Positions 16,221 through 20,537 of a stretch of DNA of 46,987 nt are shown in pieces. The position numbers were made by a program, and so were the translations under genes. Numbering within the stretch: position 1 is the stretch's first letter; each line of letters opens with the position of its first letter. The notes beneath the pieces were generated by a model. It was not told the DNA's origin. It saw nothing but the letters and a program-made list of their open reading frames with translations, and ran no database searches. This DNA is from Salinicola sp. (GTDB lineage Bacteria; Pseudomonadota; Gammaproteobacteria; Pseudomonadales; Halomonadaceae): NCBI GenBank assembly GCA_002695065.1, contig NZNW01000111.1:1-46987 (forward strand). Reading direction: 5' to 3'.

Positions 16221-16673
16221 TCAACCCGCCGAGGCCTGAACCATCGATGGGTGTCGGCTCAGCCAGCTCGCGGGATCGCGAATCAGCTCGATGCCGAGAA
16301 ACCGCGCCGCGGTGACGCCGAGATTATCGAGCAGGCGAGCGCTCTCCTCGTCCAGCGCCGGGAAGGAGACGCCACCACGCGAGTCGTGCAACCAGCACAG
16401 CACGGGGGTCCGCCCGGGACCGACGGGAAACGCCAGCTTGAGCCGTCGGTAGAGATCCGCCACGTCGAGCCGTGCCGTATCCACCCACAACAGCCACCCG
16501 GCCAGAGGCGGTCCCACCTCTTGCTCCCCCACCGCCAGCCAGGTTCTGCCTTCCAGGACGGGCAGCGTGGCCAGCGCCCGCCTCAGCGCCTCGCCCTCCG
16601 GCTCGCCGACCACTCGCAGGGAGAGCGCGCCGGGGCTCAGCCGGGCGCGCAGGCCGGCCGCCTGGTCGCTCAC
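16221..16673 (-). CDS. Unknown 150-residue protein coupled to FlhF-like gene
   Basis: Not recognised with certainty. The gene overlaps the 3' end of the extended flhF by 4 bp (ATGA), so the two are probably translated together. The protein has no Walker A motif, signal peptide or membrane segment. It shows alternating hydrophobic strands (LSLRVVG, TWLAVGE, AGWLLWVDTARLD, PVLCWLHD) and a C-terminal helix-strand RLLDNLGVTAARFLGIEL. That last pattern resembles the C-terminal part of MinD/FlhG-type ATPases, which are the normal partners of FlhF. A P-loop-less FlhG-like remnant is one possibility, and a low-confidence one. Start codon and frame are well supported by the overlap and by coding-like composition. 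Confidence 0.7.
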   Translation of the reverse strand: MSDQAAGLRARLSPGALSLRVVGEPEGEALRRALATLPVLEGRTWLAVGEQEVGPPLAGWLLWVDTARLDVADLYRRLKLAFPVGPGRTPVLCWLHDSRGGVSFPALDEESARLLDNLGVTAARFLGIELIRDPASWLSRHPSMVQASAG

Positions 16674-18943
16674 GCCGCCACGGCCACGTCGGCAGACGTG
16701 ACCATTCCCGCCCTCGCCAGCGCGGCGTGAGCGCTCAGCGTATCCATGAGCGCCTCAAGCAGGGCCTTGGGACGACGTCCGCAACGACGCTGGGCGATGC
16801 CCGACAAGCTGGCCCGCACGTCCATCGCCCAGGCCTGCTCCTCTTCGCTCAGACGTAGCGCCAGCGCTGCCAGCATCGCGGCCAGGTGCCAGCGCTGCTC
16901 GCCGTCGTGGGTCGCCAGGCCGCGATCTATCAGAATCCGGTCCGCCTGCCGCGTCATGCCGGGCAGGGCATCGCCGGCAAACGCCGATGGCAGGCGCGAG
17001 GCGGCATCGAAGCCGGCTTGTGCGGTGCCGAGCCAGTAGCGGCTCGCCAATCGGCGGCCGTCGTCGCGGTCGCGAACTTCTCCATGCCAGGCGACGACCG
17101 GCAGAGCGTGATGATCCTGCCGGCGCTGGCTGATGCTCGTCTCCAGTCGCGTCACATGGAGATCCGCCGCGCGGCCCTGGTGACGCACCGTCCACTTGCC
17201 GACGCTTTCGCCCAACGCCATCGCCTGCGATAGCGCCAGCCATTCGCCAGCGTGACGCAGGCGGCGATTTCCCGTGACCGACGCCAACCAGCCCTGCCCC
17301 TGGCTATCGAGACCTTCCAGCTCCGGGACATCCGGCAGCTGCGCGAACAGGTGCCAGCCGACGCCGAGCGGTCGCGCCCACTCCAGCTGCCCGCGCTGGC
17401 CGGCCGGCAGCCGATGGCGTGGCCAGGCCAGCGGCTGCGGCATGCCGTGATGGTCCAGCGAGACCAGCGGCATCGCCCGGTCGACACCGCTGACATTGCC
17501 ACTCTTGGACCAGTACAGCGCATGGGAGGTGCGGCTGGAGGCCACCAGCCGCTGCTGCGTCATGTCGTCCATGAGTCGCGCGAAATCGCCGGAGGCGGCC
17601 CCGACGCGATTGGCGCGATGCCAGACCTGTTCGAGCAGCGCCATGCCCAGATTGTGCTGTCTCAAGGTGCCGAGTGTCGTCTCCAGCGCGCCGCCCTGGC
17701 GCAGCACACCGCGGGAGAGCGCCTGCTGGCGGGCCCGCGGCAGGGGTAGCGCTTCCGTTTCCCGAAGCTCGTCGAAGGGCGAATTTCCCGCCAGCGACAG
17801 CGCTTCGGTGAGCAGCGCGTCGGCCTCCACCCGCTCGAGATCTTCCGGCACGCGCTGCCCCCGGGACACATAGCAGAGCTTGAGACGATGGCGCATGACC
17901 ACATCGAGCACGCTGCCCAGGCGCGCCGCTTCGTCGAGCTTGGTCAGGATGCAGCCCCACAGCGGCTCCCCGGCATCCAGCGACGCCTGCTGCCAGGCTT
18001 CGATGACCTGCGCCAGGGTATCGCCGTGGCTGGCGGCGTTGAGCACGAGCACGCGTCTCGCCGGTGCGGGCCCTTCGGCCAGGCGTGCGATCTCCCCCAC
18101 CAACCGCTGGTCGCGCTGACTCATGCCGACGGTATCGATCACCGTCAATTTCTTCCCCGCGCTGCGTGACAGCAAGGCGCGACGCGGTTGCGTCAGTCTG
18201 GCGACCAGCTCCCCCAGATCGCCATCCTCCTCGAGCGCGTGAACCTCGGTGCCCAGCAGCCTGGCGTAGATTCGCAACTGCTCCGCGGCGCCGATTCGAT
18301 AGCTGTCCGTGGTCACCAGTGCCACCTCCTTGGGCCCGTGGCGCATCACGTAGCGAGAGGCCAGTTTCGCCGTGGTGGTGGTCTTGCCGACACCGGTGGG
18401 ACCGACCAGCGCGAACACTCCGCCATCGGCGAACAGCGCGTCCTCGTCCTCCAGCCATGTCAGCCGCGAGCGCAGCTGGCGCAGCAGCCAGGCCTCCACG
18501 GCGGGAGATTCGGGGGGCTCGTCGCGCAGCTCTTCCGGCGGATCCTGAAGGAGATCGTCGGCCAGCGATGCGCTGAACCCCGCCTGGATCAGGCGGCGAT
18601 GCAACGAGGCCGTCAGCGATGGCGAACCGGCCCGCGAGGAAGCGGCGTTGTCATGCAGCAGCGCACGCACGTCATCCAGCAAGCGGCGGTTGAGCGCCTC
18701 GAGCGTCTCCACCGTGGGCGTGGCGGCGGGCTCCGGCATGGCCGCCGCCGCGGGACTCGCCTGCGCCGCCGACGGGTCGAGACCGGCCAGCGCCTGCTCA
18801 TGCGCCTGCTCCGGCATGGCGATGATTTCGACACCCCCTTCGACCGCACGGTTGGAGAGGATCAGCACCTCATCCCCCAGTGCCGACCTCACCTGACGCA
18901 TGGCCTCGCGGCTGTTACTGGCTATGAAACGTTGGACGCCCAT
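16670..18943 (-). CDS. flhF: FlhF-type SRP GTPase with a large C-terminal extension
   Basis: FlhF is a signal-recognition-particle-like GTPase that sets the place and number of polar flagella. Residues 1-45 match the FlhF N-terminal B domain (MGVQRFIASNSREAMRQVR, ALGDEVLILSNRAVEGGVE). Residues 46-150 are Ala/Pro-rich linker and helical N region. The G domain has G1 GPTGVGKTTT (181-190), TTDSYRIGAAEQL (211-223), G3 DTVGMSQRD (270-278) and G4 TKLDEAARLG (334-343). The GTPase core ends near residue 386, where FlhF proteins normally stop, but this protein runs to 757. The last ~370 residues match nothing I recognise. The start at 18943 has GAGGAAG upstream. No flagellar gene lies within the window. 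Confidence 0.85.
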   Translation of the reverse strand: MGVQRFIASNSREAMRQVRSALGDEVLILSNRAVEGGVEIIAMPEQAHEQALAGLDPSAAQASPAAAAMPEPAATPTVETLEALNRRLLDDVRALLHDNAASSRAGSPSLTASLHRRLIQAGFSASLADDLLQDPPEELRDEPPESPAVEAWLLRQLRSRLTWLEDEDALFADGGVFALVGPTGVGKTTTTAKLASRYVMRHGPKEVALVTTDSYRIGAAEQLRIYARLLGTEVHALEEDGDLGELVARLTQPRRALLSRSAGKKLTVIDTVGMSQRDQRLVGEIARLAEGPAPARRVLVLNAASHGDTLAQVIEAWQQASLDAGEPLWGCILTKLDEAARLGSVLDVVMRHRLKLCYVSRGQRVPEDLERVEADALLTEALSLAGNSPFDELRETEALPLPRARQQALSRGVLRQGGALETTLGTLRQHNLGMALLEQVWHRANRVGAASGDFARLMDDMTQQRLVASSRTSHALYWSKSGNVSGVDRAMPLVSLDHHGMPQPLAWPRHRLPAGQRGQLEWARPLGVGWHLFAQLPDVPELEGLDSQGQGWLASVTGNRRLRHAGEWLALSQAMALGESVGKWTVRHQGRAADLHVTRLETSISQRRQDHHALPVVAWHGEVRDRDDGRRLASRYWLGTAQAGFDAASRLPSAFAGDALPGMTRQADRILIDRGLATHDGEQRWHLAAMLAALALRLSEEEQAWAMDVRASLSGIAQRRCGRRPKALLEALMDTLSAHAALARAGMVTSADVAVAA

Positions 18944-19178: not shown

Positions 19179-20537
19179 TCAGCCGTTGGTCAGCCGCTGG
19201 ATCAGGGACTGGGTCGGATAGCCGTCGGGAGTGACGCCAATGCTGCGCTGGTAGGCCCGCAGTCCGGCGCGGGTGTTGGGGCCGACCAGGCCATCCGGTG
19301 TGCCGACATCGAAACCGTGGTCGTTGAGGCCCTGCTGCATGCGACGGATGCGATCACGCGATAGCGCCGGCTCGTCCCGTGGCCACTCGCCCTGGATTCC
19401 CGGTCGTCCGGCCAGCCGGTCCGACAGCGTGGCGACGGCCAGCGCGTAGCTGGTCGAGGCGTTGTAGCGCATGATCACGCGGAAGTTGTGGCCGACCAGA
19501 AACGCCGGCCCCCGGGCCCCCGCGGGGGCGATCACCGAGGCCTGGTCGAAGTTGGGCAGAGGCTGGCCGTCGAGACGCTTCACGCCCTGCGCCTGCCATG
19601 CCTGGGTCGCGTGGCGCACCGACAGCTCGGTCTGGGAGTAATCGAAGCCGTCCGGCAAAGTGACCTCGACGCCCCAGGGTTGTCCGCGCTGCCAGCCGGA
19701 AGCATCCAGGTAGTTGGCCGTCGAGCCCATCACGTCGGGAATGCTGCCCCAGATATCCCGGCGGCCATCGCCGTCCTCGTCAACCGCGTAGGCCAGAAAG
19801 CTGCTCGGGATGAACTGGGTATGACCCATCGCCCCGGCCCAGGAGCCCCGCATGTGATCCCGGTCGATATCGCCGTTCTGCAGTATCTTGAGCGCGGCCA
19901 TCAGCTCGCCACGCGCAAACGACTGACGGCGGCCGTCGAAGCCCAGCGTCGAGAGCGCATCGATGGTTTCGAAGTCGCCGAAGTTGCTGCCGTAGTTGCT
20001 CTCGATCCCCCAGATGGCAACGATGATCTCCCCGGGGACGCCATATTGCCGGGTGACCTCCTCCACCGTGGCCCGGTTGGCGGCAAGGCGCTCGCGACCA
20101 TTGGAGACGCGCGACGCCGAGACGGCGCTGTCGAGATAGCTCCAGATCTGGCGGGTGAACTCGGGCTGGGAGCGGTCGTACTCGAGAATGCGGGGCTGGT
20201 AACTGACCCGATCGAACGCTTGCGCCAGCGTCGCCTGATCGATGCCTTCGGCGGCCGCCCGCTGCCGGAACTCATCGACCCAGGCATCGAATCCGGCCGG
20301 ATCCTGCGCGATCCCGGCATCCGCGGCAGCGCTGGAATCTGCAGTAGTCTCCTCGGTCGCCGTCCGGGCGTCGGACGCGCTGGACGTCGTCTCCCGGGGA
20401 GCGGTGGAGGAGATCGTTTCGCCGGCGCGACTTTTCGACGCGGTATGGGTATCGGCGACGCTCTGGCATCCCAGTAGCGCCAGTGAGAGGCAGAGCGAGA
20501 GTGTGGCGGGGGCCTTGAGCGGTAGTGAACGCTTCAC
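19179..20537 (-). CDS. Lytic murein transglycosylase B-type lipoprotein with C-terminal PG-binding domain
   Basis: Cleaves the MurNAc-GlcNAc bond of peptidoglycan to give 1,6-anhydro ends. The N-terminus is a lipoprotein signal with lipobox LALLGCQ (C24), then a Ser/Thr-rich linker to about residue 75. The SLT_2/MltB catalytic domain spans about 80-380, with the catalytic glutamate at E179 in AIWGIESNYG and the motifs GAMGHTQFIPSSF and YLDASGWQRGQPWG. A peptidoglycan_binding_1 domain ends the protein (about 390-450, RIRRMQQGLNDHGFDVGTPDGLVGPNTRAGLRAYQ, given here only as landmarks). The start is GTG with an AAGGATG ribosome site. Length 452. Its anhydro-muropeptide products are what AmgK/MurU eventually recycle. 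Confidence 0.9.
   Translation of the reverse strand: MKRSLPLKAPATLSLCLSLALLGCQSVADTHTASKSRAGETISSTAPRETTSSASDARTATEETTADSSAAADAGIAQDPAGFDAWVDEFRQRAAAEGIDQATLAQAFDRVSYQPRILEYDRSQPEFTRQIWSYLDSAVSASRVSNGRERLAANRATVEEVTRQYGVPGEIIVAIWGIESNYGSNFGDFETIDALSTLGFDGRRQSFARGELMAALKILQNGDIDRDHMRGSWAGAMGHTQFIPSSFLAYAVDEDGDGRRDIWGSIPDVMGSTANYLDASGWQRGQPWGVEVTLPDGFDYSQTELSVRHATQAWQAQGVKRLDGQPLPNFDQASVIAPAGARGPAFLVGHNFRVIMRYNASTSYALAVATLSDRLAGRPGIQGEWPRDEPALSRDRIRRMQQGLNDHGFDVGTPDGLVGPNTRAGLRAYQRSIGVTPDGYPTQSLIQRLTNG

Follow-up and report, generated by a model that had tools for sequence, protein, structure and literature searches.

Why should a GTPase of flagellar placement carry a long tail of unexplained nature, and why should its gene lie away from the flagellar genes? 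FlhF and its partner FlhG set flagellar position and number, and the question is raised by an flhF gene on the minus strand (16670..18943) of a 46,987-nucleotide stretch of Salinicola sp. DNA (contig NZNW01000111.1), the whole of which we call the window. The reading frame is uninterrupted, with zero internal stops across 757 codons. An earlier note on this DNA had described the product as an FlhF with an unexplained C-terminal extension of about 370 residues, encoded outside a flagellar cluster, and both statements hold. The best explanation of the locus as a whole, to which we assign a probability of about 0.7, is that the FlhF-FlhG switch of flagellar placement has been rebuilt, in a genome whose flagellar system is of the FlhDC type: FlhF would have gained a transposase-derived tail and FlhG would have shrunk to a small protein encoded directly downstream.

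The core of the protein is that of an FlhF. It passes the curated NCBIfam model TIGR03499 (201.8 bits against a cut-off of 174.15), which covers residues 1-252; together with the alignment this places the N-terminal B region and the start of the N domain at residues 1-165 (18449..18943, minus strand; limits approximate). An SRP54-type GTPase domain follows at residues 176-382 (17798..18418, minus strand), where PF00448 scores 119 bits against a cut-off of 22.7 and the alignment finds the motifs GPTGVGKT, DTVG and TKLDE, so the nucleotide-binding motifs are intact, as had been claimed. The DTVGM that the earlier note had singled out turned out to be no peculiarity: DTVG is read in 16 of 17 aligned long FlhFs of the GTDB family of Salinicola (DTVGM in 15 of these; L071 has DTLG) and in six Burkholderiales-type FlhFs, and three FlhFs of family f297 read DTTG, DTTG and DNMG at this place. 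Nor was support found for a repurposed SRP-type GTPase in the sense of a divergent extra copy: the genome (assembly 96% complete) yielded no second FlhF, the two further matches in the FlhF search being only 29% and 27% identical, the level of Ffh or FtsY. Seven named FlhF relatives from Salinicola are 64-94% identical to that of the window.

The tail, residues 388-757 (16673..17782, minus strand), is poorly served by the databases. Searched alone (371 aa), it gave zero Pfam matches above the cut-off and none in NCBIfam or PDB up to E=1. With a 16-tail profile a single, unrelated PDB entry came up at E=0.16. Two Pfam candidates, PF18089 (E=0.0019) and PF11453 (E=0.053), were rejected because they fell below the cut-off and appeared in only one of 16 tails. 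The claim that the tail lies outside known families thus stands for the tail by itself, but the whole protein aligns over residues 1-731 with the 768-position NCBIfam model NF011312 (PRK14723, 'FlhF'), at 413.8 bits against a cut-off of 951.

What the tail derives from is seen most directly in its relatives. A search of 398 genomes of the phylum matched 15 and found tails of this kind in FlhFs of other families, L155 among them; two of the matches were weak and, as far as examined, not FlhF, and were set aside (G1087, E=0.007, where the gene calls of L157 include no FlhF; G1093, E=5e-4, a frame with two stops). In BLASTP the tail of L155 matches the transposase L117 at E=2e-37, with 27% identity over 375 aa, and the Burkholderiales-type tails L155, L156, L154 and L122 each match two to four of the transposases L117, L133, L134 and L193 (E 3.6e-38 to 3.5e-4). 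One Halomonadaceae tail, L076, matches L133 weakly (E=0.002), and the same search against six reversed transposases gave nothing up to 0.05.

Profiles extend this link to the Halomonadaceae; the alignments behind them (A1-A10) consist of hand-picked representatives, mostly the best-scoring loci, and are not a random sample. A profile of 16 exclusively Halomonadaceae tails (A3), run against 369 genomes of the class, had a sole match outside the family, a transposase ORF (E=7e-7). Against 483 sequences it retrieved six Burkholderiales-type FlhFs (1.9e-17 to 1.1e-5) as well as the transposases L134 (6.6e-9), L133 (9.2e-9) and L117 (1.1e-6), with the top unrelated protein at 0.48 and reversed sequences yielding zero matches up to E=1. 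Nine aligned IS4-type transposases (A4) match the Tn5 transposase along its length (E=5.9e-66). When transposases and Halomonadaceae tails were compared profile to profile we obtained P=2e-7, and adding two f43 and two Cupriavidus tails gave P=4e-10 over 320 columns, tail 38-364 against transposase 43-464 (hhalign used 19 of the 20 rows of A5); two reversals, 30 shuffles of each side (60 in total) and four unrelated pairings all remained at P>=0.07. In the opposite direction, a transposase profile found the FlhFs of G905 (9.7e-18), G1099 (2.5e-8) and G984 (1.7e-4), and zero Halomonadaceae FlhFs up to E=1. A transposase-free tail profile (A10, which omits four of the 16 tails of A3: L074, L078, L081 and L087) matched nine of 399 genomes from the order of G905, namely seven tail-bearing FlhFs, one transposase (a 441-aa frame, E=1e-22) and one fragment (E=1.2e-5). 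These comparisons show, at the level of sequence, that the FlhF tail descends from a full-length IS4/Tn5-type transposase.

The tail is probably catalytically dead, since in alignment A7 the D1 aspartate is missing from 12 of 12 aligned FlhF tails and D2 from 10. The window's tail has K, A and D in the D1, D2 and E columns and so lacks the DDE triad; the E column is acidic in nine of the 12. Inactivity does not follow from the D1 column by itself, because A7 includes three transposases and one of these, L134, has N there. The tail is nevertheless conserved: its dN/dS is 0.10 between the window and S. lusitanus, 0.08 against S. acroporae, and 0.10 and 0.14 in two further Salinicola pairs, values that indicate purifying selection. 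The GTPase domain gives 0.05 and 0.055 in the same two comparisons and 0.03 and 0.01 in the further pairs.

Its distribution tells the same story of retention. We sampled 121 genomes of the GTDB family, our own included, and 84 of them encode a tail-bearing FlhF; the tally excludes G024, whose weak tail match lies in a different ORF from its FlhF and would raise the number to 85. In sixteen further genomes (genera g3, g4, g22 and g24) the FlhF match is tailless, with open frames of 424-477 aa in 15 and a partial one of 170 in the last, and the remaining 21 have matches at the Ffh/FtsY level or none, as judged by E-value alone. The earlier note had raised the prospect of a tail common to Halomonadaceae with a described function; most FlhFs of the family do have it, but no described function was found and NF011312 is silent on its nature. 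In the wider order the tail occurs in 15 of 293 genomes, 11 of the same family and four of family f43. G984 and G905 share an order, and in the FlhF tree G984 falls with Cupriavidus; we infer from this that the order is the Burkholderiales. Named tail-bearing FlhFs are those of Cupriavidus metallidurans (825 aa) and C. campinensis (835 aa). Outside Salinicola, tails are 21-38% identical to that of the window. Three long FlhFs of family f297 (L198-L200; 866, 1016 and 783 aa) have more diverged tails.

The second half of the answer lies immediately downstream. The flhF stop overlaps by four bases (GTGA) the GTG start of a 150-aa ORF on the same minus strand (16221..16673), here called mini-FlhG, whose N-terminus reads MSDQAAGLR. 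Residues 3-9 (DQAAGLR; 16647..16667, minus strand) conform to DQAxxLR, which PMC12826062 describes as the enhancer helix through which FlhG stimulates GTP hydrolysis by FlhF. Among the 36 best-scoring loci, on both strands, DQA..LR lies +3 to +55 bases from the flhF stop in every one; a small ORF follows flhF in 13 of 14 long-FlhF genera examined, and one bearing the motif was also found in genera g8, g10, g11, g12, g20 and g23. The remainder of mini-FlhG matches FlhG columns 122-213 (profile P=1.2e-6; best of 40 shuffles 0.19), and with the helix removed hhalign still gives P=1.3e-6, so the homology extends beyond the helix. Against P. aeruginosa FleN alone the value is P=0.0087. A PDB search returned three FleN sequences (E about 1) among nine of 177,635 sequences at E up to 5, at the same colinear place, a result that is weak alone. 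The predicted model is confident (pLDDT 82, pTM 0.80), with residues 1-11, the helix, below 50. The 150 residues contain no Walker A (KGGxGKT). By its sequence the ORF is apparently a shrunken FlhG, with the helix and a remnant of part of the C-terminal half. The statement that the window has no flhG therefore stands as regards a full-length ATPase, but the next ORF encodes a reduced FlhG-like protein.

No MinD/ParA-like match in the Salinicola genome carries the helix motif. Six Burkholderiales-type FlhGs (L122, L124, L153-L155, L132) are full length and have the helix but have lost the Walker A lysines, which suggests that loss of the ATPase preceded the shortening of FlhG. P. aeruginosa FleN (L123) shows the opposite, with KGGVGKT present and the helix motif absent from the annotated frame. 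Elsewhere in the GTDB family, one genome each of g3, g22, g24 and g4 (L083-L086) apparently has a short FlhF without FlhG: no ORF with DQAxxLR lies within 20 kb, and no helix-bearing FlhG is among the MinD-like matches examined.

Family f43 offers a natural comparison. In L118 (9632-11548) and L119 (8450-10408) there is no mini-FlhG nearby and the GTPase motifs of FlhF, here a pseudo-GTPase, have decayed, with DTRG in place and TKxDE lost but the P-loop kept as GPAGVGKT; both tails are retained (E 2.3e-53 and 7.4e-53). L120 and L121 have kept both mini-FlhG and the GTPase motifs. Motif decay in the absence of mini-FlhG agrees with the helix acting on behalf of the GTPase and the tail having a separate task. 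In a tree of FlhF cores (32 rows), the seven sequences of Burkholderiales type cluster together (93/91 in the full tree), and four short FlhFs group with P. aeruginosa (100/100) on a long branch (1.16). The inner branches between Halomonadaceae and Burkholderiales sum to about 0.7, with fork support of 83/69 to 88/84. Such a topology would fit, without proving it, the acquisition by Halomonadaceae of a betaproteobacteria-type flagellar system; PMC12826062 states a transfer of such a system into enterics. Most likely the fusion would have originated in the lineage of the Burkholderiales and come to Halomonadaceae along with the flagellar genes.

We then considered the setting of the gene in twenty genomes, 20 kb each, including the 14 long-FlhF genera, with neighbouring genes other than FlhF (FlhA-like ones included) named by eye. 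In 12 of the 14 the gene immediately before flhF is FlhA-like, and where gene lists were available FlhE-like and/or fliA-like ORFs follow the small ORF. In Salinicola and in genus g15 the pair of flhF and small ORF sits elsewhere. Salinicola's own flagellar cluster is on contig C130, where a CheY-type regulator, CheZ, FlhB, FlhA, FlhE and a sigma factor stand in a row from which flhF is absent, and the order flhA-flhF-flhG does not occur in this genome. Since flhA directly precedes flhF in 12 of 14 genera and not in Salinicola, the suggestion of a relocated gene was right: flhF has moved away from the flagellar cluster. About 11 kb from the C130 row the genome encodes FlhC (E=8e-84), the marker of an FlhDC-type flagellar system. 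That this system is the betaproteobacterial/enteric type comes in part from PMC12826062. Upstream of the window's flhF we found no sigma-70-type site, and the best sigma-28-like site was no better than in shuffles; of nine upstream regions scanned, only that of L071 had a sigma-28-like site rarely reached by shuffles (20/200). Directly upstream of the relocated flhF, on the same minus strand, lies an SLT_2 lytic murein transglycosylase (19179-20537), a similar gene being seen by eye in L068 and L069. Elsewhere in the genome, contig C142:8000-27528 (L066) encodes a second FHIPEP protein of 729 aa beside a secretin and ORFs that by eye resemble SctD/SctJ, a cluster of non-flagellar, type III secretion-like character.

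How might such a switch operate? FlhF would dimerise in a GTP-dependent manner, as elsewhere. The overlapping mini-FlhG, probably translationally coupled to flhF, would supply the DQAxxLR helix, whose glutamine would trigger GTP hydrolysis, and on/off control of FlhF would therefore survive; the ATP-driven membrane cycling of FlhG and its flagellar counting would be lost. The tail would have no catalytic part and would serve in docking or dimerisation, positioning FlhF or holding on to a partner from the flagellum or the cell envelope. Protein docking is its most likely function: we put protein binding at about even odds, with some other role a good deal less likely and DNA binding lower again. 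As a complete scheme, a dead Tn5-type transposase fold, perhaps dimeric or DNA-binding, that positions FlhF and new flagella while a stand-alone FlhG helix protein switches GTP hydrolysis and the FlhG ATPase is dispensed with, remains tentative. Peritrichous or lateral flagella, recorded for several Halomonadaceae species in PMC10690426, would be consistent with a loss of ATP-driven counting.

A number of observations pull the other way. The window's tail itself has no pairwise BLAST match to transposases and is linked to them through profiles and Burkholderiales-type intermediates; A3 retrieves just three of the nine transposases of A4 and finds L193 at just E=0.0048, the profile-profile match falls to P=0.0055 without the three closest transposases, and the Pfam transposase model has zero matches among five Burkholderiales-type tails. 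The AlphaFold model of the tail, built on an alignment of the window and seven Salinicola rows, is poor (pLDDT 45), and the mixed profile A7 found no relevant match in PDB. Neither is the tail universal in Burkholderiales, as the tail profile did not match the FlhF of B. glumae (574 aa). Mini-FlhG evolves fast, with dN/dS of 0.48 (S. lusitanus), 0.74 (S. acroporae) and 0.43 in one further Salinicola pair, the fourth comparison, also a Salinicola pair, giving 0.095. The single g7 genome examined (L082) has the tail and intact GTPase motifs with no neighbouring mini-FlhG, a counter-example to the f43 pattern, and a motif search found no helix-bearing FlhG in L156 or in L198-L200 (11 kb examined for each of these three). 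The FlhF tree is unrooted and its deep forks are weakly supported, so transfer is not proven. Lastly, tail charge is not conserved, which counts against a conserved DNA-binding role.

That role is the rival with most to be said for it: the tail could have kept the transposase's DNA binding and so tie FlhF to the chromosome, and with it flagellar placement or the control of flagellar genes. It is homologous over nearly its whole length, part of the N-terminal region included, to a DNA-binding enzyme, and three tails of the genus Salinicola are basic (pI 10.3-11.1); the Cupriavidus-type tails L122, L124 and L153 are acidic, however (pI 5.8-5.9), and because pI thus varies from 5.8 to 11.1 we consider DNA binding unlikely. 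A functionless remnant of an insertion-sequence fusion would account for the lost catalytic residues and the low identity of tails outside Salinicola, but it is very improbable given the tail dN/dS of 0.08-0.14, its presence in 84 of 121 family genomes and in Burkholderiales-type FlhFs, and its survival in f43 genomes in spite of decayed GTPase motifs. That the tail is still active, as transposase or nuclease, might be read from the acidic E column, yet the loss of D1 from all and D2 from most aligned tails leaves next to no room for it.

Convergent or compositional similarity between tail and transposase would explain why the window's tail has zero pairwise matches and why A3 misses six of nine transposases, but it is strongly disfavoured by a colinear FlhF-tail match at E=2e-37 over nearly the whole length and by the negative shuffled, reversed and unrelated controls. 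The doubt over mini-FlhG is somewhat more substantial, though still improbable: the ORF may not derive from FlhG, its first helix alone mimicking that protein. In its favour, 15 members gave no convincing Pfam or NCBIfam match, Foldseek of the model returned only generic P-loop/Rossmann folds with zero matches at E<=0.001, and the comparison with FleN alone is modest; the position directly after flhF, the helix-free profile match and, weakly, the colinear FleN sequences in PDB argue for descent from FlhG.

No description of an FlhF-transposase fusion or of a mini-FlhG was found in the literature searched (titles and abstract openings, mostly open-access), and as far as those papers go this variant of the switch is novel. 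FlhG is presented as an ATPase in a 2025 review (PMC12826062); here would be a natural version from which that ATPase is apparently gone and to which a transposase body has been added, separating the two jobs of FlhG, the helix trigger and the ATPase cycle. It would also offer a route into flagellar placement in the GTDB family of Salinicola, and an example of a domesticated prokaryotic transposase within a host protein, one that stayed hidden because Pfam and NCBIfam failed to recognise the tail as such.

Set beside known systems, the window's protein shares with FlhF (TIGR03499, the SRP-type GTPase of flagellar placement) the B-N-G architecture, intact motifs, its status as the sole FlhF found and, in most relatives examined, a place after flhA; it differs in the extra transposase-derived tail of about 370 residues and, in Salinicola, in lying outside the flagellar cluster. 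The long-FlhF model NF011312/PRK14723 spans the tail with its 768 positions and is passed by the C. metallidurans FlhF (1238 bits against 951), whereas the window (413.8) and L155 (853) fall below its cut-off, the matches of L072 and L121 stop at residues 443 and 351, and the entry as returned says nothing of the tail or its origin. Mini-FlhG resembles FlhG/FleN, a MinD-type ATPase, in its place after flhF, its DQAxxLR helix and its C-terminal-half remnant, and differs in being about 150 aa long and without Walker A. With the IS4-family and Tn5 transposases the tail shares homology along nearly its whole length; unlike them, the window's tail lacks D1 and D2, is fused to a GTPase and belongs to a tail that has been kept across genera.

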